From: Candidatus Krumholzibacteriia bacterium
GTDB taxonomy: Bacteria; Krumholzibacteriota; Krumholzibacteriia; WVZY01
Length of the DNA stretch: 49,569 nucleotides
NCBI GenBank assembly: GCA_029863805.1
Contig: JAOTUR010000002.1
Coordinates: forward strand, 1-49,569
Direction: 5' to 3'
Both the position numbers and the translations under genes were made by a program. Shown here piece after piece: positions 12,814-29,252 of the stretch; position 1 is the stretch's first letter, and each line of letters begins with the position of its first letter. The notes under the pieces are model-generated. The model was not told where the DNA came from and did no database searches. It worked only from the letters and a program-made list of their open reading frames with translations.

Positions 12814-15414
12814 ATGACGAAAAAGAGAAAAAAGAAAACGGAGAGAGCGGAGAAGAAGACCGCTCCTCGCGGCCCCGCCTTGGTGTCCGCTTCTCCACTC
12901 GCCAGCAATCTTCGTCGCAACCAACAAGTCCTCATATCAGTCTTTCTTCTGATCGCGAGCATATGCGTCCTCTACCCTGACCTCGTATTCCAGGACAAAA
13001 TCCTGGCCGCGGCGGATGCGGAGTCCGCGACGAGTTTGGCCGCGCCGATTCAGAAAGGGATGAGTGAGGGCGAATACCCGCTATGGAATCCACTCCTATT
13101 CGCGGGTATGCCAAGTTATGCGAGCTTGTCCTTTAACCCGTACGTGTATCCGGTAAGTCTCTTGACCGGGTTTCTGTCGAATCACCTCAAATTCCCGGCT
13201 TATACATGGCTTCTGTTGCATATTTTTATGCTTGGTCTCGGCGTTTGGCTGCTCCTCGTCGAAAGGCGAGTCCATTTTTTGATCGCAGCCGGGGCCGGGA
13301 TTATAATGATGTGGATGCCGAACCATGTTGCGGTCGGTGTTCACGGACATGGTAGTCAAGCCAGCGCAGTTGGTTTTATACCGTTCGTTTTGTTTTTCTG
13401 GGATCGTTTGTGGAGGGGTAAGGGGATCGTCATCAATGCAAGTGTTCTGGTGATTCTGCTCGGGTTTCAGCTTCTAAGGGCTCATATTCAGATCTCGTAT
13501 TACACGTTTGGTCTCCTGGGCTTGCACCTGGTGTTTTTTGGGTTCCTCAGAATCCGAGACACATTTCGGCGCCAAGCCGATGGAGTTTCACAGTTGATAT
13601 TCCGATTCTTGTATCGGCCCGGTGGTGCGATCTCTATGCGCCAGGCAGCCATCTTGGATGTTGTCGGCGCGGCAGTCATCCTTGCGGTGGTTGTTTTGGG
13701 ATCCCTGGGTGTCAGCGCCGTGCTTCTCGCGCCGGTGCACGATTATTCAGGATATTCCATCCGTGGCGCTGCGGGTGGCGGAGGCTTGGACTATGACTAT
13801 GCAACGATGTGGAGTCTTCATCCTCTTGAGTGCCTGACCTTCGTCATTCCGTTTGCGTTTGGTTTTGGCAAGTTCTTTTACTATGGCTATATGCCATTCA
13901 CCGACTACCCGAACTACGTTGGGATCGTCGTGGTTGTTTTCGCCGTGATTGGACTCTTTATCGTGCGAAAACGATTTTGCTGGTTTCTTCTCTTTGTAAT
14001 TGTGTTTTCTACGCTGGTCGCATTCGGTAACCATATGCCGGTGCTTTACAACTTGCTCTTCAAGTTTTTGCCGTACTTTAACAAATTCCGCGTTCCGGTA
14101 ATGTTCCTTATCGTACAACAGATTGCTTTCGTTCTGCTGTTTGCGATGGGGCTGTCGGCGATTCTAAGCTATGATGCAGTCCGCGGGCGCCGCGCAGCTA
14201 AGTGGGCTGTGGGGGCCTCGGCTGCCGTGCTATTGATTGTGCTTTTTACCCATGACTACTGGACTGGTGGTTTTGCGAGCTCGATTGCGGGCCGGATCCG
14301 GAACGTTCGTTCGGTACAAGAGCAAGTCGCGGTGGCTAATCTGGCAGGCGATTTGCTCTTCAAAGACCTGTTGAAGTTCTCGGTACTGCTTATTGGGATG
14401 TCTGCACTGGCGCTGTTGTTTTTTCGGCGTCATATCAATGCACGAGTGTACGTCATGCTTGTTTTGGTGGCGGCGCTTGTGGATGTGTTTCTCGTTGATC
14501 GACACATTCTTCACCCCGAGAGACTTTACCGGGTCCAACAGTTGCAAATTATCCGCGATAGGCCTGATGCGGAGCGTTTTACGCAATCGGACCCCTTGGT
14601 GGAGTATTTGCAGAGTCGACCCGGGCGCTATCGCATATTTCCCATGACACATCCTTCGTCGGCGCGCTACGGTGAGTTTGAGTCGAATCGTTATATGAAT
14701 TTTGGCATTCCATCGATAGGTGGCTACCACCCAGCGAAGCTGGCGATATATGAGCAATTCTTGAACGCTATGGCGGACGCCGTTAAGCGGGGAAACTTAC
14801 AGATGGTTAATATACTCAACGCACGTTACTTGGTTACGCCCAACCAAATCAAAGAAAGCGCAGCTCTGAAACCGGTTTGGCGCGGGGGCGATTATAAGGG
14901 TCAGGAGAAGTTTGTATATGAAAACTTGCAATCGTTGCCCAGAGTGTTCTTCGTCGATCAGTTCGAGGTTCTAACGGACAACACGGCCATTGACAGGATG
15001 ATAACCGATGAGAGTCTTGATCTCTCACAAACGGTTCTATTGGAGAGTGTGCCCCAGATAGCACCGGTATCTGCCGAAGGAGCGAGCGCCGAGATCACCA
15101 AGTACGGGTTCAACGAGATTCACATTGATGCGTCGTTGCCGGCACCGGCGCTGCTGGTTGTGAGCGAAATATACTATCCCCGATGGCGCGTGTGGGTGAA
15201 CGGCGAACCGGGGGAGATTATCCGGGCAAACCACGTGTTACGTGCCGTGGCACTGGGTGCGGGTGACAACGAACTCGTATTCCGATACGACCGGTCGTTG
15301 TTCAAGAAGTCGCTAATCTTGTCTGTTGTTACGTTATCGGCAGCGCTTTTCACTCTGGCTGTCGCCTTGACTGCAAGGCGATGGGGTAAGGCAAAGTGGA
15401 AACTCTCATCATAA
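12814..15414 (+). CDS. YfhO family membrane protein (GT-C-like)
   Basis: DKILAAADAESATSLAAPIQKGMSEGEYPLWNPLLFAGMPSYASL; many TM segments; C-terminal YYPRWRVWVNGEPGEI...ELVFRYD typical of YfhO proteins. Confidence 0.85.
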   Translation: MTKKRKKKTERAEKKTAPRGPALVSASPLASNLRRNQQVLISVFLLIASICVLYPDLVFQDKILAAADAESATSLAAPIQKGMSEGEYPLWNPLLFAGMPSYASLSFNPYVYPVSLLTGFLSNHLKFPAYTWLLLHIFMLGLGVWLLLVERRVHFLIAAGAGIIMMWMPNHVAVGVHGHGSQASAVGFIPFVLFFWDRLWRGKGIVINASVLVILLGFQLLRAHIQISYYTFGLLGLHLVFFGFLRIRDTFRRQADGVSQLIFRFLYRPGGAISMRQAAILDVVGAAVILAVVVLGSLGVSAVLLAPVHDYSGYSIRGAAGGGGLDYDYATMWSLHPLECLTFVIPFAFGFGKFFYYGYMPFTDYPNYVGIVVVVFAVIGLFIVRKRFCWFLLFVIVFSTLVAFGNHMPVLYNLLFKFLPYFNKFRVPVMFLIVQQIAFVLLFAMGLSAILSYDAVRGRRAAKWAVGASAAVLLIVLFTHDYWTGGFASSIAGRIRNVRSVQEQVAVANLAGDLLFKDLLKFSVLLIGMSALALLFFRRHINARVYVMLVLVAALVDVFLVDRHILHPERLYRVQQLQIIRDRPDAERFTQSDPLVEYLQSRPGRYRIFPMTHPSSARYGEFESNRYMNFGIPSIGGYHPAKLAIYEQFLNAMADAVKRGNLQMVNILNARYLVTPNQIKESAALKPVWRGGDYKGQEKFVYENLQSLPRVFFVDQFEVLTDNTAIDRMITDESLDLSQTVLLESVPQIAPVSAEGASAEITKYGFNEIHIDASLPAPALLVVSEIYYPRWRVWVNGEPGEIIRANHVLRAVALGAGDNELVFRYDRSLFKKSLILSVVTLSAALFTLAVALTARRWGKAKWKLSS

Positions 15415-16121
15415 TACCAACATACAACGAGCGAGAGAATATCGATACTCTCATAAACCGGATACTGGATCTTAAGCTTGACCTCGGTGTTCTGGTTGTG
15501 GACGATAATTCGCCGGATGGCACGGCAGGTGTCGTCGAGAAATTGGGCAAGGCGCGAGATCAAGTACACTTGCTGAAGCGACCGAGTAAGATGGGTCTTG
15601 GCAGCGCCTATATCGCCGGGTTCAAGTGGGCACTCAAGAATAAGGCAGTGCAGTACGTTTTCGAAATGGATGCCGATTTTTCTCACGATCCGAGTGCTTT
15701 GCCCGAGTTCCTAAGCGCGATCAAAGACGCAGACCTCGTGCTCGGATCTCGCTATCTCGACGGTATCACAGTGATGAATTGGCCGCTGTCGAGACTGTTT
15801 TTGAGCGTCGGCGCCAATATCTATACAAGGGTCATTACGGGAATGCCGCTAAAAGACGCCACCGGTGGATTCAAGTGTTTTCGGCGTGTGGTCCTCGAGA
15901 GCTTGCCGTTGGATGACATCAAGAGCGATGGGTACTCGTTCCAGATCGAAGTGAATCATCACGCGTGGAAAAAGAAGTTTAGAATTAAGGAGATACCGAT
16001 TACCTTCGTCGATCGAACCAGCGGCACCTCAAAAATGTCCCGTCGCATAATTTGGGAAGCGGCATTTCTCGTCTGGAAGCTTCGTTTCGAATCGATTCGA
16101 AAGGGTTTTCAGAAAGAATAG
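15396..16121 (+). CDS. GT2, DPM1-like polyprenol-monophosphate mannose/glycosyl synthase
   Basis: IIIPTYNERENIDTLI, VVDDNSPDGTA, EMDADFSHDP, DATGGFKCFRR, SDGYSFQIE. Confidence 0.9.
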   Translation: METLIIIPTYNERENIDTLINRILDLKLDLGVLVVDDNSPDGTAGVVEKLGKARDQVHLLKRPSKMGLGSAYIAGFKWALKNKAVQYVFEMDADFSHDPSALPEFLSAIKDADLVLGSRYLDGITVMNWPLSRLFLSVGANIYTRVITGMPLKDATGGFKCFRRVVLESLPLDDIKSDGYSFQIEVNHHAWKKKFRIKEIPITFVDRTSGTSKMSRRIIWEAAFLVWKLRFESIRKGFQKE

Positions 16122-16128
16122 TGTTTCC

Positions 16129-18234
16129 GTGGATATCTCCGTAATCATCGTAAGTTACAACAGTCGCGCCGATCTTGAGCCCTGTCTAGAATCACTCAAG
16201 AAGCAGAGTCTCTTTGATCGCACCGAGGTGGTCGTCGTGGACAACGCGAGCACCGACGGAACACCGGAAATGGTCCGCGATCGTTATCCCTGGGTCAATC
16301 TTCGTTTGAGCGGTCGAAACGTGGGCTATTCGCGTGGCGTGAATCTCGGTATGCAGGTGGCGCAGGGCAGATATTTTCTGGTTTTAAACCCTGATACCGT
16401 CGTCAGAGAGCATTCGATCGAGAAATTGTTTCAGTTCATGGAGCATACGCCGGATGCAGGCGTCGTCGGCCCAAAGCTAATATTCAATGATGGTAACGTC
16501 CAATACTCTTGCCGGAGATTCTACAACTGGAAGGTGCTAATACTGCGCAGGACGTTCCTGGGTAGAATATTCAAGAATTCAACAGCTATTTCCGAACATT
16601 TGATGCTGGATTACGACCACGAGACGACAACGGCAGTCGACTGGATTATAGGTGCGTGTATGCTGGTTCGGCGCCAGGCGGTTGAGTCGGTCGGTCCCAT
16701 GGATGAGAGGTTCTTTTTGTACTTTGAGGATGTTGATTGGTGCTACCGGATGAAGCAGAAGGAATGGGGGGTCTATTATTGCCCCGAAGCTGTTGTTGTC
16801 CACGGTTACGAAAGGGAGAGTGCACAGTCAGTAATAAATCGGTCGTTTGTCGCACATCTGGCAAGCCTTATTCGCTACTACGAAAAATGGAATTTCGTGT
16901 TCTACATGCTTAAGAAGTATCGAGAGGTTGTCAAGATTCTACTTTTTGTCGTGGTCGATATTGTTGCGTTCAACGTCGCGTTTCTGTCCGCATACAATTT
17001 GAGGATCTTGCTGGGCGACGTGTTCGTAAAGCCGATTTTTGAAATTGGCGTCTATGAGCGGTTTGTGGTCTTTGAGAACTTGCTATTCATCTTCGTGTAT
17101 TTCAGCCTGGGTCTCTACAAAATAAGAAGGGAGACGTCCGCCGTTGACGAACTGTTCAGAATCGGAAAGGCGATTGTACTCGCATCGATACTTCTTATGG
17201 CGAGCACATATCTGAGCCAGATTCGCACATATTCGCGGGTGGTCGTCATATTTCTGGTCCCTTTTGCGATTTCTTATGACTGGATACTAAGGACCCTGGT
17301 ACGCCGATTACACAGAGGGCTGATATCACAAAAGATCGATCTCAAGAGGGTTTGTATTGTCGGCCCGATGGATAAGGCGAGGGAGCTTGAAGAGAGGCTG
17401 GTTTTGGACACCTCGCTCGGTATTGACGTTGTTGGTGTAGTAGAGACCTCGGAGAATGCTGGAGAGGTCGGGGGTGGCAGTTTGGGAGATCTTTCACGTA
17501 TAGGTGAGATTATCGATAGGTTTCTCATCCATGAGCTGGTATTCCTGCCTGGCGCGGTGCCCGAGGGCAAGCTTGCCGAGCTAGTGAGGTTGGGGCGTAG
17601 GCGGGTTATCGATATCTCGGTGCTGACCGACTATTCGGGACTGGTGGTCCACCAGGCGACGGTGGCCAATCTGGCGGGACGCCCCGTGATCGCCTACCGC
17701 AGGGATACCCGTTACGCTCTCGATCGGTTTGCGAAGCGGCTGCTGGACATCGTTCTGGGGACAGGTTTTCTCGTGGCGTCGGTGCCTTTCTCTGTGGTAT
17801 ATTTACTATATTCCTCAATTCGAGGCAGTGCTCCTTACGCGTGGGAGTCACGACTCGGCTTGGGCGGCAAGTCTTTCATGCTTCCGGCGGCAGGTGCGAG
17901 GAGTTCGAACGGTCCCTCTGATATTGTCAATCTACCCCTCTTTTGGCTGGTCATAGTCGGCAGGATGAGTATCGTCGGTCCCTATCCGTTTCCGGCGTTG
18001 GGGGTCGCTCTGGTCGACCGGGCGGCTAAGTTCCGGTTTGATGTTCGACCCGGTATCACTGGATATTGGAGAGTGGGAGAAGAACAAGAGATTGCTCTCG
18101 ATGAGCTTCTTGCACAGGACGCCAACTATACTAGAAACTGGTCTTTTGTAGAGGACGTCAAGATCCTAGTGATAACTTTTGGCAACATCCTGATGGGTAA
18201 GAAACGCAGCCTTAGACTGAAAGACCCGTCGTAG
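16129..18234 (+). CDS. Fusion: N-terminal GT2 + C-terminal WbaP-like polyprenyl glycosylphosphotransferase with a degenerate catalytic motif
   Basis: N-terminus VSYNSRADLEPCLESL / VDNASTDGTPE / LNPDT / FLYFEDVDWCYR; then TM segments, a nucleotide-binding-like region, and KRLLDIVLG...GRMSIVGPYP...RPGITGYWRVGEEQEIALDELLAQDANYTRNWSFVEDVKIL. Confidence 0.85.
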   Translation: MDISVIIVSYNSRADLEPCLESLKKQSLFDRTEVVVVDNASTDGTPEMVRDRYPWVNLRLSGRNVGYSRGVNLGMQVAQGRYFLVLNPDTVVREHSIEKLFQFMEHTPDAGVVGPKLIFNDGNVQYSCRRFYNWKVLILRRTFLGRIFKNSTAISEHLMLDYDHETTTAVDWIIGACMLVRRQAVESVGPMDERFFLYFEDVDWCYRMKQKEWGVYYCPEAVVVHGYERESAQSVINRSFVAHLASLIRYYEKWNFVFYMLKKYREVVKILLFVVVDIVAFNVAFLSAYNLRILLGDVFVKPIFEIGVYERFVVFENLLFIFVYFSLGLYKIRRETSAVDELFRIGKAIVLASILLMASTYLSQIRTYSRVVVIFLVPFAISYDWILRTLVRRLHRGLISQKIDLKRVCIVGPMDKARELEERLVLDTSLGIDVVGVVETSENAGEVGGGSLGDLSRIGEIIDRFLIHELVFLPGAVPEGKLAELVRLGRRRVIDISVLTDYSGLVVHQATVANLAGRPVIAYRRDTRYALDRFAKRLLDIVLGTGFLVASVPFSVVYLLYSSIRGSAPYAWESRLGLGGKSFMLPAAGARSSNGPSDIVNLPLFWLVIVGRMSIVGPYPFPALGVALVDRAAKFRFDVRPGITGYWRVGEEQEIALDELLAQDANYTRNWSFVEDVKILVITFGNILMGKKRSLRLKDPS

Positions 18235-18255: not shown

Positions 18256-20625
18256 ATGAGCATTTCAGCCAGTAAGACCGCTAAAACAATCCTGATTCTA
18301 GCCGCTCTTCTTTTCTTGTGGGATTTGCCCGCAGGTGCTCAACGCGGTAAGTGGATCAGCCATGTCAACCCAAGCATGATTTCGGAGATCATCCTCAAGG
18401 ATGAAGAACTGTTCGTTGCCAGCAGCGGTGGGCTGATTATTTTTCAGCCTCGTGACTCGACCTTTGAGCAGTTTACCAATACCATCGGCTTGCCATCAAA
18501 TCTCCTCACCTGCCTTGCCTTTGACGCGGGCGGCGCGCTCTACGTTGGGACGGATCAGGCCGGTATCGCGCGCCTTGATTTTGTGCCGGGTGGCTTTGCG
18601 GTGAATACACTCAGCTCGACCTTTGACGGGCTCGCGGACGACCGGATTACCACACTCACCGCGTGGGGTGATAGCATTGCTTACGGAACCATGCGGGGTG
18701 CGGGCCTGATCGTTGAAGGGTTCCCCGGTCCTCGCTTTCTTGTCAAGGACGGTCTTCCCAGCGAGTTCATTGACGACCTTTTTGCCGATGGAGATCGGTT
18801 GTGGTTTGCGACCGATAATGGCGTGGCCCGCCTGGACAAGTTTGGTTTTATAACGGAGTTTTCAACAGGATTGCCCAGCGTCAATACACACGTGTTTGCA
18901 AGAGATGATACGGCCCTGTGGGTAGGTACGGAGGCAGGAGTTGCCCGCTTCAACCCGTCGGACAGCACTTGGATCCCGGATGGTTTGGGCAACCAGTCGA
19001 TTTTCTCGTTAAAGTACGACGGTCAGAAGCTGTGGGCGGCCTCGCGCGTGAGTCTGTTCGACAACGACGGCAGCGGATGGGCGGGGCGCAGTTTTTTCGA
19101 CGTTTACCAGAGGAACTTTCTCACCATAGCATTTTCTGAAGTAAGAGGGCTGCAGCCGATGTCAGACGGTACTGTTTACCTTGGCGTCCGTCAGCTGAAT
19201 CAGCGAATAGGCGCATACTTGATGGTGTTTGACGGAACACGCGTAAGAGAATTTCCGAACAATGCTCCGCCAGAGAACCATCTGGTGCGCGCGACCTTTG
19301 ATATCGATGGTTCTCTGTGGGTGTCAAGTAGGCGATTGGGTGTAAGCAAACTAACTCCCTCCGGCGTTTGGTTCGCCTATAACCCTGCCGCAGGCGATAC
19401 TAACTTGAGCTCGCAATTTGACAATTTCACGCTGCTCGCCGACTCCCAAGGCTCAAAGTGGTTTAGTACGCTGTGGAGGCCCGGGTTCCCAGTCCCGATG
19501 GATGAACTGCAAGACGGTATTGACCTTTCACGCGACAACGATGTGTGGATCCACCACACAATCGGATCCGGTGGTGGCGATGGACTGGGATCCTTAAGAA
19601 ATCAACGGGCTCTGGAGGATCCAGCGGGCAACCGTTGGTTCTTGTCCGACATCGAAGAAGGTACTTCGCCGTTGGGTTGGTGGGGCATAAACATACTGAG
19701 CGCGGACCGATCCGAGTGGAAGCAGGTCAACCCCGCGAACACGAGCCTGGGAATGCCGGTTGGCAATATAACCGATGTCGCGTTTGGCCCCGACGGCGTG
19801 GTCTGGGTCGCCGACAAGGTGTTTGGCGTTATTGAGTGGCTTACTGGTGGTTATGATCAGGCCAACCTGTTTGATCTGAGCGACGATATATGGATCACGC
19901 GTGGCACGGTTAGTGGCAATTTTGACTCTAAGAATGTCACAGCGCTCGCACTGAGAAGCGATGGCGTGTTGTGGGTGGGCACGGAGTTGGGAGTCTTCAA
20001 ACTCGACAATGGAGTATTCCGTAACATACGTGCGAATCGTGGCTTGGGAGTGGGTTTACTGAGCAACAACGTTTTCGATATCTTATTGGATCGGGATGAG
20101 AATCTGTGGGTGGCCACTGAGCTGGGGCTGGATCGAATTGCGCGTGATGATGATAACGATATCACATCATTTACGACGGGTGTAGTTTGGCAGACTCAAT
20201 TGAGCCTTTTCTTTCCGCCTGATGTGGTGTCACCGCTCACCGGTGCCCGTTGTGAGGCGTTCGCGCTGCACCCGACGAGAGACTTGCTTTATATTGCCAC
20301 GCTTGGTGGACTGTCGATATTGGACTTGTCGTCGCTCGAACCTACAGCGTTAGATTTATCGACGGTTTTCGTCTTTCCAAACCCAATTCGTACGCGCCGG
20401 GGGCATGGCGCGCTAAAGATTGCCAATCACAATCGCCCAGTCGACGTGGAAATCTATACGTTGGAAGGCGAATTGGTTCATCGGGCAAGAAACGTCGGAG
20501 CTTCTCAGGACGTGGTGTGGGAGCTGACCACGGAGGCGGGTTTTCTTGCCGCCAGCGGGGTTTACCTGGTTAGAATCCGCTCCGGCGGAGACTCGATTGT
20601 CAGAAGGGTTTCACTAATTCGATAG
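18256..20625 (+). CDS. Secreted two-component-regulator-type beta-propeller protein with C-terminal T9SS/FlgD-like Ig domain (PorZ-like)
   Basis: N-terminal signal peptide (ILILAALLFLWDLPAGAQ); repeats such as GLPSEFIDDLFADGDRLWFATDNGVARLDK; C-terminus VFPNPIRTRRG...VEIYTLEGELV...ASGVYLVRIRSGG. Confidence 0.75.
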   Translation: MSISASKTAKTILILAALLFLWDLPAGAQRGKWISHVNPSMISEIILKDEELFVASSGGLIIFQPRDSTFEQFTNTIGLPSNLLTCLAFDAGGALYVGTDQAGIARLDFVPGGFAVNTLSSTFDGLADDRITTLTAWGDSIAYGTMRGAGLIVEGFPGPRFLVKDGLPSEFIDDLFADGDRLWFATDNGVARLDKFGFITEFSTGLPSVNTHVFARDDTALWVGTEAGVARFNPSDSTWIPDGLGNQSIFSLKYDGQKLWAASRVSLFDNDGSGWAGRSFFDVYQRNFLTIAFSEVRGLQPMSDGTVYLGVRQLNQRIGAYLMVFDGTRVREFPNNAPPENHLVRATFDIDGSLWVSSRRLGVSKLTPSGVWFAYNPAAGDTNLSSQFDNFTLLADSQGSKWFSTLWRPGFPVPMDELQDGIDLSRDNDVWIHHTIGSGGGDGLGSLRNQRALEDPAGNRWFLSDIEEGTSPLGWWGINILSADRSEWKQVNPANTSLGMPVGNITDVAFGPDGVVWVADKVFGVIEWLTGGYDQANLFDLSDDIWITRGTVSGNFDSKNVTALALRSDGVLWVGTELGVFKLDNGVFRNIRANRGLGVGLLSNNVFDILLDRDENLWVATELGLDRIARDDDNDITSFTTGVVWQTQLSLFFPPDVVSPLTGARCEAFALHPTRDLLYIATLGGLSILDLSSLEPTALDLSTVFVFPNPIRTRRGHGALKIANHNRPVDVEIYTLEGELVHRARNVGASQDVVWELTTEAGFLAASGVYLVRIRSGGDSIVRRVSLIR

Positions 20626-20654: not shown

Positions 20655-22076
20655 ATGTCGAAAAAGTTGCTGATAATCGGTGCCGGCGAGGCCGGAAGGA
20701 TGGTCGTGCGCGAGATTTGCGCCCATTCCAGTAGTGATCTCGAAATCGTTGGTTTTCTCGACGACGATCTAGCTTTGCAGGGGCGGACGATCGAAGGCTA
20801 CCCTGTCCTCGGTGACACCACGAAGTTACCGGAAGTGGCCAACGAAAAGCCAGTGGACGAGGTCATTATCTCGGTGCCATCCGGGTCGCGAGATTTTGTA
20901 CGTCGTATGGTTGCGCTGTGCCGTGACGCCAAGGTGTCGTTCAAGATCGTGCCTGGGCTCATCGAGATCATCCGTGGACCCGTTCATCTGGAGCAAATCA
21001 GAGAGGTGCATCCCGAGGATCTGCTGGGTAGAGAAACGGTCGCATTCGCGGAAGAAGCGATCGGTCGAGAGCTGGCCAATCGCAGGGTAATGGTTACCGG
21101 AGCTGGTGGCTCAATCGGAGGGGAGATATGTCGCCAACTGGGACGGTTTGACATGGGTGAACTTCAGTTGTTCGGGCGTGGCGAGAACCAGATATATGCC
21201 ATCGAGGAGGAAATCCGCCGAGCCCATCCGGGATTGCGCGTTCGGCCGGTGATCGGCGACGTGCGGGATGGGGAAGGGCTCATGCACGCTTTCAAACGTC
21301 TTCGCCCGGAGTTCGTCTATCATGCGGCTGCTCACAAACACGTGCATTATATGGAGGCACACCCCGAAGAGGCGGTGAAGAACAATATTTTTGGCACTGA
21401 GCACATCATTGGGGCATCTCGGGAAACGGGCGTACAAAGACTGGTGATGCTCTCTACAGACAAAGCGGTCAGGCCCGTGGGCATTATGGGTGCGAGCAAG
21501 CGGGTCGCGGAGTATCTGATGATCCACGGCTCTCTCACCCGCGGAGGGCCGCGTTTGATCACTGTGCGTTTTGGCAATGTCCTGGGGAGTCGCGGCAGCG
21601 TTGTACCTCTTTTCATGCGTCAGATCCGGAGAGGTGGTCCTGTAACCGTTAGTGACCGAGAAACCTCTCGCTTCTTTATGACACTCAAAGAGGCCTGTCT
21701 GCTGGTCGTGCAAGCATCGGTGATGGGCAAGGGTGGTGAGGTGTTCATATTGCAAATGGGCGAACCGATAAGGATCATCGAGATTGCCAAGGATCTTATC
21801 GCACTGCACGGTCTGCGATCGGAGATTGACGTTAAGATCGAGTTCACAGGTCTTAGAGCCGGCGAGAAAATGCACGAGGATCTGGTCGCCGACGGAGAGG
21901 TTGTTGAAAAATCTCCTCATGACTTTATCTTGACGTCGCGCCCAGAGTTGCCGAAGGGGTGGGATCACGATAGAATACTCGAACGGTTCAAAGAGCTGAC
22001 ACGCCGAGGTGACAGCGACGGTATACGAGACCTTCTCGGTACTATAATTCCGGATGCGAAGCTCAGAAAAGTCTAG
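20655..22076 (+). CDS. CapD/PglF-like UDP-sugar 4,6-dehydratase, apparently without an N-terminal TM region
   Basis: VTGAGGSIGGEICRQL, HAAAHKHVHYMEAHPEEAVKNN, LSTDKAVRPVGIMGASKR; starts directly at a Rossmann-like GAGEAGRMVV. Confidence 0.9.
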   Translation: MSKKLLIIGAGEAGRMVVREICAHSSSDLEIVGFLDDDLALQGRTIEGYPVLGDTTKLPEVANEKPVDEVIISVPSGSRDFVRRMVALCRDAKVSFKIVPGLIEIIRGPVHLEQIREVHPEDLLGRETVAFAEEAIGRELANRRVMVTGAGGSIGGEICRQLGRFDMGELQLFGRGENQIYAIEEEIRRAHPGLRVRPVIGDVRDGEGLMHAFKRLRPEFVYHAAAHKHVHYMEAHPEEAVKNNIFGTEHIIGASRETGVQRLVMLSTDKAVRPVGIMGASKRVAEYLMIHGSLTRGGPRLITVRFGNVLGSRGSVVPLFMRQIRRGGPVTVSDRETSRFFMTLKEACLLVVQASVMGKGGEVFILQMGEPIRIIEIAKDLIALHGLRSEIDVKIEFTGLRAGEKMHEDLVADGEVVEKSPHDFILTSRPELPKGWDHDRILERFKELTRRGDSDGIRDLLGTIIPDAKLRKV

Positions 22077-22106: not shown

Positions 22107-23315
22107 ATGAACGCCAAACACATCGACTTACCAGCGATCGAAGGGGGTAAACCGGTCAGGGAAGACTTTCTGCCTTTCTTCCGACCATCGATCGATGAAG
22201 CGGATATAAGAAGCGTTACCGATACCTTACAGTCCGGTTGGCTGACCGTCGGTCCGAAAACTCAGTTGTTCGAAGAACGGCTCAAGCAATACCTTGGCGT
22301 ACGCAATGTTGTTGCTGTGAGTTCGTGCAGCGCGGCGATGTTTCTTGCTTTGAAGGCAATGGGGATCGGACCGGGGGATGAAGTGCTCACGTCGGCGCTC
22401 ACATTTGCGTCGACCGTACACGCCATCATACACACGGGCGCCACGCCAGTTCTGGCGGATATCGAGACGGAGACCTTTGGCCCATCGCCCCAAGATTTGG
22501 CAAGCAGGAGCTCAGCAAGAACTCGTGCCTGTATTCCCGTGCATTTTGGGGGCCAGGCCTGTCGGATTGACGAGATACAAGACATGGCCGAGTCCAGGAA
22601 TCTCTTGCTACTCGAAGACGCGGCCCACGGCTTTGGAGCGATATGCAATGGCAGGAAGATCGGCACCATCGGTGATGCGACGGCGTTTAGTTTTTATGCT
22701 ACCAAGAATCTAACCAGCGCTGAAGGTGGATGTCTGGCGACGGACAGCGATGACATAGCGCGTAAGCTCAAGATCCTATCCTACCACGGCATGTCTTATG
22801 GAAGTTGGGATCGCTACAGTCGGAGGGGGTCCTGGTATTACGACATTGAGAGCGCAGGATATAAGTTCAACGTGAGTGATGTCCTGTCATCGCTCGGACT
22901 GTCGCAACTTCAGAAGATCGATCATTTGCTGACCAGAAGGCGTGAGGTGGCTGAGAGATTCTCACAGTTACTCAGCAGCTCGCCGTATTTTGAACTACCG
23001 CGCGTTCGCAGTGGCAACACCCATACGTGGCACCTGTTCGTTGTGTTGCTGAAATCCGAGAGTCTCGCTATCGACCGCGATCGTTTCGTGGAAGCGCTGG
23101 CTGCTGAGAACATAGGCTGCTCTGTGCATTTCATTCCAGTGTATAAGCACACTTTTTTCGCACCATATCGCAAAGCGGATATGCAGTTTCCCCTGTGTGA
23201 ATCGTACTTCTCGCGTTGTGTCTCTCTGCCAATATTTCCAGGTATGAGCGATGAGGATGTTGATGATGTGGTCGAAGCCATGAACCGAATCGCTGTCCAC
23301 TACACCAGATTGTGA
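22107..23315 (+). CDS. DegT/DnrJ/EryC1/StrS PLP aminotransferase
   Basis: SGWLTVGPKTQLFEERL, LEDAAHGFGA, FSFYATKNLTSAEGGCLAT (PLP lysine). Confidence 0.93.
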   Translation: MNAKHIDLPAIEGGKPVREDFLPFFRPSIDEADIRSVTDTLQSGWLTVGPKTQLFEERLKQYLGVRNVVAVSSCSAAMFLALKAMGIGPGDEVLTSALTFASTVHAIIHTGATPVLADIETETFGPSPQDLASRSSARTRACIPVHFGGQACRIDEIQDMAESRNLLLLEDAAHGFGAICNGRKIGTIGDATAFSFYATKNLTSAEGGCLATDSDDIARKLKILSYHGMSYGSWDRYSRRGSWYYDIESAGYKFNVSDVLSSLGLSQLQKIDHLLTRRREVAERFSQLLSSSPYFELPRVRSGNTHTWHLFVVLLKSESLAIDRDRFVEALAAENIGCSVHFIPVYKHTFFAPYRKADMQFPLCESYFSRCVSLPIFPGMSDEDVDDVVEAMNRIAVHYTRL

Positions 23316-24277
23316 TGCAGATCGAGACTATTGACTCCTTCCCGACCGAGCTCGATGAGATTGCCCGCGGCTCTCCCGATGCGACTTTTTTCCAGACCAG
23401 CACGTGGATCGAGAGTGTTCATAACAGCTTTGCAAACCTGGAGTGCCGGTGTCTGGTTGCTCGCGCTGGTGGGACCATAGTCGGATATCTTCCGTTCTTT
23501 GTGATCCGACGTGGGATGGTACGTCGTTATTGGTCGTTGCCTTTTGGCACCTACGGTGGTGCTGTTGTCCTGGCGGACCGGTCGGTCGCTGATCTCTTGA
23601 CCGACCGTTATCTGCAATTGCGTCAGCAACCGGGGGCGTGCGAGGTTGCCCTGGTCGATTACCAAAACATTGTGCGAGCGCCGTCGTTGCCGGTGGAGAA
23701 AGTCGTTACCCAGTTGCTCGATTTGCGGGGCGGTTTTGAAAGCGTGTGGAGCAGCCAATTCGATAAGTCGAAACGCCGGCAGACGAGAAAGGCAAAGCGA
23801 GAGGGTATTGAGATCCTGGTGTCGCGGTCGCCGGATGAGGTCAGACAATATCACTCGATCTATGCCCAGCGATGTGTCGAATGGCAGCAGCGAATGAGGT
23901 ATCCAGAATCGCTGTTTGTCGAGCTGGTGCGAACAGGAGGAGAAAGGGTAAAGCTATTTCTTGCACGTGCGGGCGACACAATTCTTGGCGGCCATCTGAA
24001 TTTTTATTTCGGGGATACCGTTATTGCATGGAATGGTGTGACAACGGTGGACAGTCGGAGTACACAGGTAAGCACGTTGCTTTACAGTACGTGCATCCGG
24101 CACGCATGCGAGAATGGATACAGACGCTATAACCTTGGTGCGAGCCTTGGGAAAGAGTCGCTTATGCTCTATAAAGAATCACTTGGGGGCGTTCAGTATC
24201 CTTATCGCGTACTACGGTGGCGTTCGATGAGCGCGAGGATCGCTGCGGTGGCGAGAAAGCTCGTACCAAGACGCTGA
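23312..24277 (+). CDS. FemAB-like / GNAT acyltransferase
   Basis: ATFFQTSTWIESV, KSKRRQTRKAKREGIEILVS, GHLNFYFGDTVIAWNGV, LGASLGKESLMLYKESLGG; 4-nt overlap with the DegT gene. Confidence 0.78.
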   Translation: MMQIETIDSFPTELDEIARGSPDATFFQTSTWIESVHNSFANLECRCLVARAGGTIVGYLPFFVIRRGMVRRYWSLPFGTYGGAVVLADRSVADLLTDRYLQLRQQPGACEVALVDYQNIVRAPSLPVEKVVTQLLDLRGGFESVWSSQFDKSKRRQTRKAKREGIEILVSRSPDEVRQYHSIYAQRCVEWQQRMRYPESLFVELVRTGGERVKLFLARAGDTILGGHLNFYFGDTVIAWNGVTTVDSRSTQVSTLLYSTCIRHACENGYRRYNLGASLGKESLMLYKESLGGVQYPYRVLRWRSMSARIAAVARKLVPRR

Positions 24278-27374: not shown

Positions 27375-27818
27375 ATGCACAACTACTTCAATGAGAAGTC
27401 GCTCCACAATATCGACCCTAAGGGTCGTCTCCTCCTTCCCAAGGACATCCGCCACGCGTTCAAGATAAAGAAGGGGGACCCGTTGTACCTAGTTCCCAAC
27501 CTTTCCGATCCTCAGTATCTGGAAATCCGGACCGCCAAACAGTGGGGTGACTACTGTGAGAGCCTACGGCGAGAGACCTCCGGCGAACAGAAAAAAGACA
27601 CATTCAGGTACGCCATGATGAGCAAGGAGCAATCGACCGTCGATGGCCAGGGACGCATCCTCATACCTCAAGGGATACGAGATAGCTGCAAACTCGATGG
27701 TTCGGTCGCTGTAATCAACATGGACCAGTACACCGAAGTCTGGTGCCAGGAACACGTGGAAAGAAAATATGCAGATATGGTGCGTGCCTTTAAGGCGACC
27801 AACGATCGGATATTTTAA
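27375..27818 (+). CDS. mraZ: Division/cell wall cluster transcriptional regulator MraZ
   Basis: Two AbrB-like repeats: IDPKGRLLLPKDIR and VDGQGRILIPQGIR; first gene of the dcw cluster. Confidence 0.93.
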   Translation: MHNYFNEKSLHNIDPKGRLLLPKDIRHAFKIKKGDPLYLVPNLSDPQYLEIRTAKQWGDYCESLRRETSGEQKKDTFRYAMMSKEQSTVDGQGRILIPQGIRDSCKLDGSVAVINMDQYTEVWCQEHVERKYADMVRAFKATNDRIF

Positions 27819-28808: not shown

Positions 28809-29252
28809 TTGAAGACAACGCGCAATCATATCTATCGAAGGTTCAGCAGTCTCGTATTCGCAGCTCTGACGTGTCAGGCGAGGTTGTCTGTGACACTTGC
28901 CGTGTACTCATCGATTGCGCTGCTGTTGTTGACGTACGTGACTGCACAAGTGTACACCAGTGCTCTCACCCAGCAGATTGCGGAGCTGAAGCAGGAGAGG
29001 CACGTCCACAAAGAGATCCTTCACAGAATGTCAAGCGACTACATTTCGTTATCGTCCAGGGCTCGTGTGACGCACTACTGTGAGAGCGTTTTGGGCATGA
29101 CACAGGCAACGGATGATAGCATGGAAAGGATCGCAATCTCTGACGACATCATCGGTTTTCGAGAACCGATCGCGTTCACTCTTCGCGATGCGCGGCCCCC
29201 TGATCCGAACCGTTTCACACTGCTCCGTGAAGACGGAAAGTCAGGTCAATGA
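28809..29252 (+). CDS. ftsL: FtsL-like cell division protein
   Basis: One TM segment plus coiled-coil (TSALTQQIAELKQERHVHKEIL) between rsmH and ftsI; likely TTG start at 28809. Confidence 0.7.
   Translation: MKTTRNHIYRRFSSLVFAALTCQARLSVTLAVYSSIALLLLTYVTAQVYTSALTQQIAELKQERHVHKEILHRMSSDYISLSSRARVTHYCESVLGMTQATDDSMERIAISDDIIGFREPIAFTLRDARPPDPNRFTLLREDGKSGQ

Follow-up and report, generated by a model that had tools for sequence, protein, structure and literature searches.

A GT2 glycosyltransferase fused to a large phosphoglycosyltransferase-like scaffold lacking the catalytic Asp-Glu dyad, conserved across a Krumholzibacteriota-like phylum sample

A single open reading frame of the window analysed here (the whole stretch of 49,569 nucleotides, part of a 3.68 Mb MAG) joins a GT2 glycosyltransferase domain to the scaffold of a large phosphoglycosyltransferase (Lg-PGT) from which the catalytic Asp-Glu dyad has been lost. 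Whereas the dyad has been described for every member of the monotopic PGT superfamily (PMC10519829), none of the 62 fusion members readable at this position in a sample of 80 Krumholzibacteriota-like genomes carries it, as compared with all 16 of the canonical PGTs that were sampled in this phylum. No pseudo-enzyme form of a PGT or of WbaP was found in the open-access literature searched, subscription papers being outside the scope of the search, and literature searches yielded nothing direct on GT2-PGT fusions or on Krumholzibacteriota with type IX secretion (T9SS). The fusion gene and its parts are as follows.

16129..18234, plus strand: GT2–large-PGT fusion ORF, 701 aa, GTG start
16138..16848, plus strand: GT2 glycosyltransferase domain, residues about 4-240 (PF00535, E 2.9e-28)
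16921..17328, plus strand: four long helices, residues 265-400, predicted equivalent of the WbaP four-TM bundle (AlphaFold model; Foldseek)
17344..17697, plus strand: Rossmann-like part of PF13727 (CoA_binding_3, the Lg-PGT DUF), residues 406-523 (Pfam; model)
17707..17823, plus strand: predicted reentrant membrane helix, residues 527-565, with an AKR motif and a V-P break (AlphaFold model)
17848..17925, plus strand: shortened segment ahead of the dyad, with KFRSM and roughly 24 residues gone (spacer length)
17920..17922, plus strand: Asp598 (alignment with phylum members)
17926..17931, plus strand: Val600-Asn601 at the catalytic Asp-Glu position (codons gtc aat; alignments)
17983..17985, plus strand: Tyr619 replacing the VGPRP Arg (sequence; alignment)
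18049..18195, plus strand: kept PGITGYW motif and C-terminal helices, residues 641-689 (Pfam; model)

The N-terminal domain belongs to the GT2 family (PF00535, residues 4-186, 99.3 bits), and the columns D38, N39, N87, D89, E200, D201, D203, W204 and R207 are kept in 71-72 of 72 homologues; since these catalytic columns are invariant, we infer that the domain would be an active transferase. The PF13727 match covers residues 327-464 (27.4 bits against a cut-off of 25), and the core domain belongs to PF02397 (Bac_transf) both by sequence and by fold, scoring 77 bits over a cut-off of 27 with no Asp-Glu at the dyad, its best stretch (residues 601-688) covering only profile positions 90-178. The combination of GT2, PF13727 and PF02397 thus indicates a GT2 enzyme joined to a complete large-PGT scaffold, and not to a PGT domain alone. 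The original prediction concerned the PGT domain and did not take in the N-terminal GT2, PF13727, the conservation of the fusion across the phylum or the PorZ-like neighbour, which is described below. With Lg-PGTs such as Salmonella WbaP (PDB 8T53) and WcaJ, the fusion would share the four-TM bundle and the PF13727 DUF ahead of the core, the reentrant helix and the PF02397 core fold, as judged from the model; it differs from them by the absence of the Asp-Glu dyad, of KFRSM and of the VGPRP Arg, by having about 24 residues fewer, and by the added N-terminal GT2. Published criteria for the reentrant-helix motif are Lys-Arg and (Ser or branched-chain)-Pro (PMC6133551); in this region R537 is near-invariant and a Pro is found in only 25 of 72 homologues. 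As in Bi-PGTs (PMC10942596), a further functional domain is joined to a monoPGT, but the PGT core of Bi-PGTs is presented as catalytic, whereas that of the fusion is without the dyad. Finally, the GT-A fold and the conserved GT2 residues recall the rhamnosyl/fucosyl-type GT2 transferases (TIGR01556; WrtF structures), although the fusion scores below the TIGR01556 cut-off and, unlike them, is joined to a pseudo-PGT.

The replacement of Asp-Glu by Val-Asn, as originally predicted from the codons gtc aat, is agreed upon by three independent alignments. In a phmmer alignment with WbaP 8T53, the segments 'ivnlplfwlvivgrmsivgpyp' and 'ldelpqlfnvlkgdmslvgprp' match without gaps and place V600-N601 on the dyad; the same register was obtained with the family profile against WbaP 9S7S and by MAFFT alignment with the 16 canonical PGTs, and a local misalignment of the dyad is ruled out by these comparisons. 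The predicted substitution of the VGPRP Arg by Tyr619 and the retention of the downstream PGITGYW and NWSFVEDVKIL segments were likewise found. The segment ahead of the dyad is indeed shortened and has lost KFRSM, but by less than the roughly 50 residues that had been claimed: the spacer between the RxG motif and the dyad measures 27 residues in the fusion versus 50-51 in canonical copies, so that the true deletion, KFRSM included, amounts to about 24 residues. An alternative Asp-Glu pair is not present; an upstream Asp (Asp598) lies two residues before the lost dyad, in a register set from sequence alone, and has no Glu following it. Asp598 is invariant in lineages f1-f5 and f8 (28/28), in which the dyad mostly reads VK, FK, VN, LN or LK, and is absent from f6 and f7, in which all 34 members have Gln at the Glu position. 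An active bifunctional PGT-GT with a normal dyad is excluded by the sequence.

The dyad-less form constitutes a conserved clade. Counted at E below 1e-90, the fusion is found in 67 of the 80 genomes, a few of the counted copies ending at contig ends and most of the remaining genomes being incomplete MAGs. All fusion rows of these lineages fall on one side of a branch with an SH-aLRT of 95 (quick search, with composition warnings), the canonical side also holding three fusions from Wallbacteria, with Asp-Lys, and three fusions from other records that lack the dyad (L042-L044), one of them labelled Gemmatimonadetes. It had been anticipated that uniformly canonical homologues in sister genomes would speak against a genuine loss, and such homologues are not what the fusion family contains. 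A sequencing error or recent mutation was also considered and rejected, because the nearest relatives share PSDIVNLPLFWLV and the loss is phylum-wide. Canonical PGTs are encoded elsewhere: PF02397 is found above its cut-off in 77 of 78 genomes, most matches being full length and far stronger than that of the fusion itself, and the genome of the window holds three PF02397 copies with intact DE.

Loci outside the phylum sample may represent other states of the same protein.

L055:6944-9330 (Paenibacillus): adjacent, slightly overlapping genes for a GT2 and a canonical Asp-Glu Lg-PGT
L060:5998-8267 (Eubacteriaceae): adjacent, slightly overlapping genes for a GT2 and a canonical Asp-Glu Lg-PGT
L047:537-2615, L049:6001-8061 and L051:6001-8037: GT2-PGT fusions of Wallbacteria with the dyad Asp retained and Lys in place of Glu
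L137:3226-4866 and L139:4255-6033: GT2-TM-PF13727 fusions without a PGT core, adjoining the same polyprenyl-P-sugar synthase gene as the dyad-less fusion

The split gene pairs of Paenibacillus and Eubacteriaceae likely correspond to the pre-fusion state, and the whole can be read as a series from split genes to an Asp-Lys fusion, a dyad-less fusion and a PGT-less fusion, an ordering that is interpretive and in which the direction of change is unproven.

A domain devoid of its catalytic residues may be either retained or in decay, and the original reading, that of a retained pseudo-enzyme, holds in view of the open frame and of the purifying selection acting on the domain. No internal stop occurs in the phylum-wide best matches of the fusion, and dN/dS of the PGT-like part lies between 0.09 and 0.37, thus well below 1 in 13 of 13 pairs (some with dS near saturation), the GT2 part giving mostly 0.05-0.14 in the same pairwise comparison. 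The fold also appears to be kept. The AlphaFold model of the full protein (mean pLDDT 80) has WbaP 8T53 as its best PDB match (Foldseek, E 6e-17), although the full-model superposition is poor (rmsd 18.7), and domain placement is therefore uncertain; the PGT-like part alone (pLDDT 80) is predicted to adopt the PGT fold at which the original prediction had pointed, matching PglC and WbaP at fold level with TM scores of 0.68 and 0.70, with no other fold being significant. The main rival to retention is slow decay, in which the PGT-like part would be a tolerated passenger of an ancestral fusion and only the GT2, the TM bundle and PF13727 would matter. Slow decay also fits the evolutionary rate of the PGT-like part, about double that of the GT2 part, and it is kept alive by the f6 members, in which this part is much degraded, with little left beyond L-x-GPR and PGLTGxW; two genomes outside the phylum (G080 and G086) are entirely without the PGT domain, their GT2-TM-PF13727 fusion ending before the PGT core. 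We nevertheless regard decay as rather unlikely given the selection, the open frames and the predicted fold, the residues that are invariant within single lineages at the dead site, and the maintenance of the fusion in so many genomes of the phylum.

The neighbourhood of the fusion gene suggests in which pathway the retained protein may work.

12814-15414: 866-aa membrane protein without a match in Pfam or NCBIfam, conserved phylum-wide in its place upstream of the fusion
15396..16121, plus strand: polyprenyl-phospho-sugar synthase-like GT2 (DPM/PpgS type), adjoining the fusion
18256..20625, plus strand: PorZ-like propeller protein, directly downstream of the fusion (NF052228, E 1.5e-27; synteny)
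20371-20610: T9SS C-terminal domain of the PorZ-like protein itself (TIGR04183)
20655..22076, plus strand: nucleotide-sugar dehydratase with PF13727 and Polysacc_synt_2 (PseB/CapD/PglF-like)
22107..23315, plus strand: DegT-type sugar aminotransferase
23312..24277, plus strand: FemAB/GNAT-like transferase (PF13480)

In the 20 neighbourhoods read, the genes follow the order TMEM260-like, epimerase, ArnC-like GT2, (GT4 and/or GT2 paralogue), large membrane protein, DPM-like GT2, fusion, PorZ-like, PseB/CapD, often DegT, then FemAB, towards MraW/FtsI; not every lineage has all of these genes, and some contigs end early. The DPM/PpgS-type synthase stands beside the fusion in 20 of 20 neighbourhoods, as it does in five other loci from outside the phylum sample, and the PorZ-like gene in 18 of 20, not being recognisable in L115 and L121. 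We also observed that positions 4111-29249 of the window make up a glycan locus, conserved in gene order phylum-wide, that runs into the dcw cluster (MraW at 27818, FtsI at 29249).

The downstream neighbour is named 'PorZ-like' only, because its score with the PorZ model NF052228 (96 bits) is under the curated cut-off of 260, which is exceeded in none of 78 genomes; the best NF052228 match of many genomes is nevertheless the gene that adjoins the fusion. The T9SS link is hence based on synteny, on domain composition and on the T9SS genes that the genomes contain. The genome of the window encodes both the SprA translocon (517.9 bits summed, cut-off 200) and CTD cargo (81 matches). PorU scores above its curated threshold in 53 of the 78 genomes of the phylum, the MAG of the window itself giving partial matches only, below the cut-off (best E 9.2e-36). 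A PorZ-like protein with a T9SS CTD is encoded beside a glycan locus in a genome that lies outside Bacteroidota and has SprA. In Porphyromonas gingivalis, PorZ delivers A-LPS to PorU (PMC8545088), and WbaP, VimA and the Wbp enzyme PorR/WbpE belong to the A-LPS gene set (PMC7468200). By gene content, the present locus resembles this A-LPS or Wbp-Vim anchoring pathway (PMC7468200, PMC8545088): T9SS genes are found in the genome, and a PorZ-like protein, a nucleotide-sugar dehydratase, a DegT aminotransferase and a FemAB/GNAT transferase are found in the locus. The phylum is different, however, the PorZ-like gene is under the curated cut-off, and the P. gingivalis set includes WbaP. The likeness may be taken as a lead and not as a proof.

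We consider it rather probable that the pseudo-PGT serves as an anchor for an active GT2 and orients it on a polyprenyl-linked acceptor, the glycan so made being probably a surface or cargo-anchoring one. An anchoring, dimerising and acceptor-holding role is suggested by the lack of the main catalytic PGT features tested together with the occurrence of canonical PGTs elsewhere in the genomes. The acceptor would be primed by these canonical PGTs; the PGT-like module would form no phosphosugar adduct, its reentrant helix and PGT fold instead binding the polyprenyl-(pyro)phosphate end of the acceptor, to which the GT2 domain would then add the next sugar. PF13727 might dimerise the fusion protein as it does WbaP, in which this domain mediates dimerisation and has been implicated in uridine-nucleotide binding (PMC10942596). 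The product would most likely be the glycolipid of the locus, located at the surface or anchoring T9SS cargo; this link is the weakest step of the scheme. The broader proposal, that a PGT fold has phylum-wide been turned into a lipid-acceptor holder for the attached glycosyltransferase and is dedicated to a T9SS glycan-anchor pathway outside Bacteroidota, is put forward tentatively, as a possibility that we judge to fall short of probable.

The same PF13727 properties could be read in favour of a regulatory subunit, in which the pseudo-PGT would dimerise with canonical large PGTs, regulate or recruit them, and couple initiation to addition of the second sugar. This would agree with the coexistence of canonical PGTs in the genomes and with the PF13727 of the neighbouring dehydratase, yet in none of the neighbourhoods read does a canonical PGT gene adjoin the fusion, and we regard the idea as improbable. 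That catalysis has been relocated, with Asp598 as a new nucleophile of an active divergent PGT, is very improbable, since the invariance of Asp598 in the f1-f5 and f8 members, with Lys, Asn or Ser at the Glu position, has to be set against the missing Glu, the Pro, Tyr, Leu, Ala or Gln found for the VGPRP Arg in these Asp598-bearing lineages, the loss of the KFRSM block, and the f6 and f7 proteins, which do without Asp598 in the same architecture and synteny.

A conserved clade of dyad-less proteins with an attached glycosyltransferase would form a pseudo-enzyme branch of the monotopic PGT superfamily and would offer a natural test of the role of the PGT fold apart from catalysis. It would also warn that annotation based on PF02397 overcalls glycan-initiating enzymes. 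For the organisms themselves, the neighbourhood of the fusion is a candidate locus for the synthesis of a surface or cargo-anchoring glycan in T9SS bacteria outside Bacteroidota.
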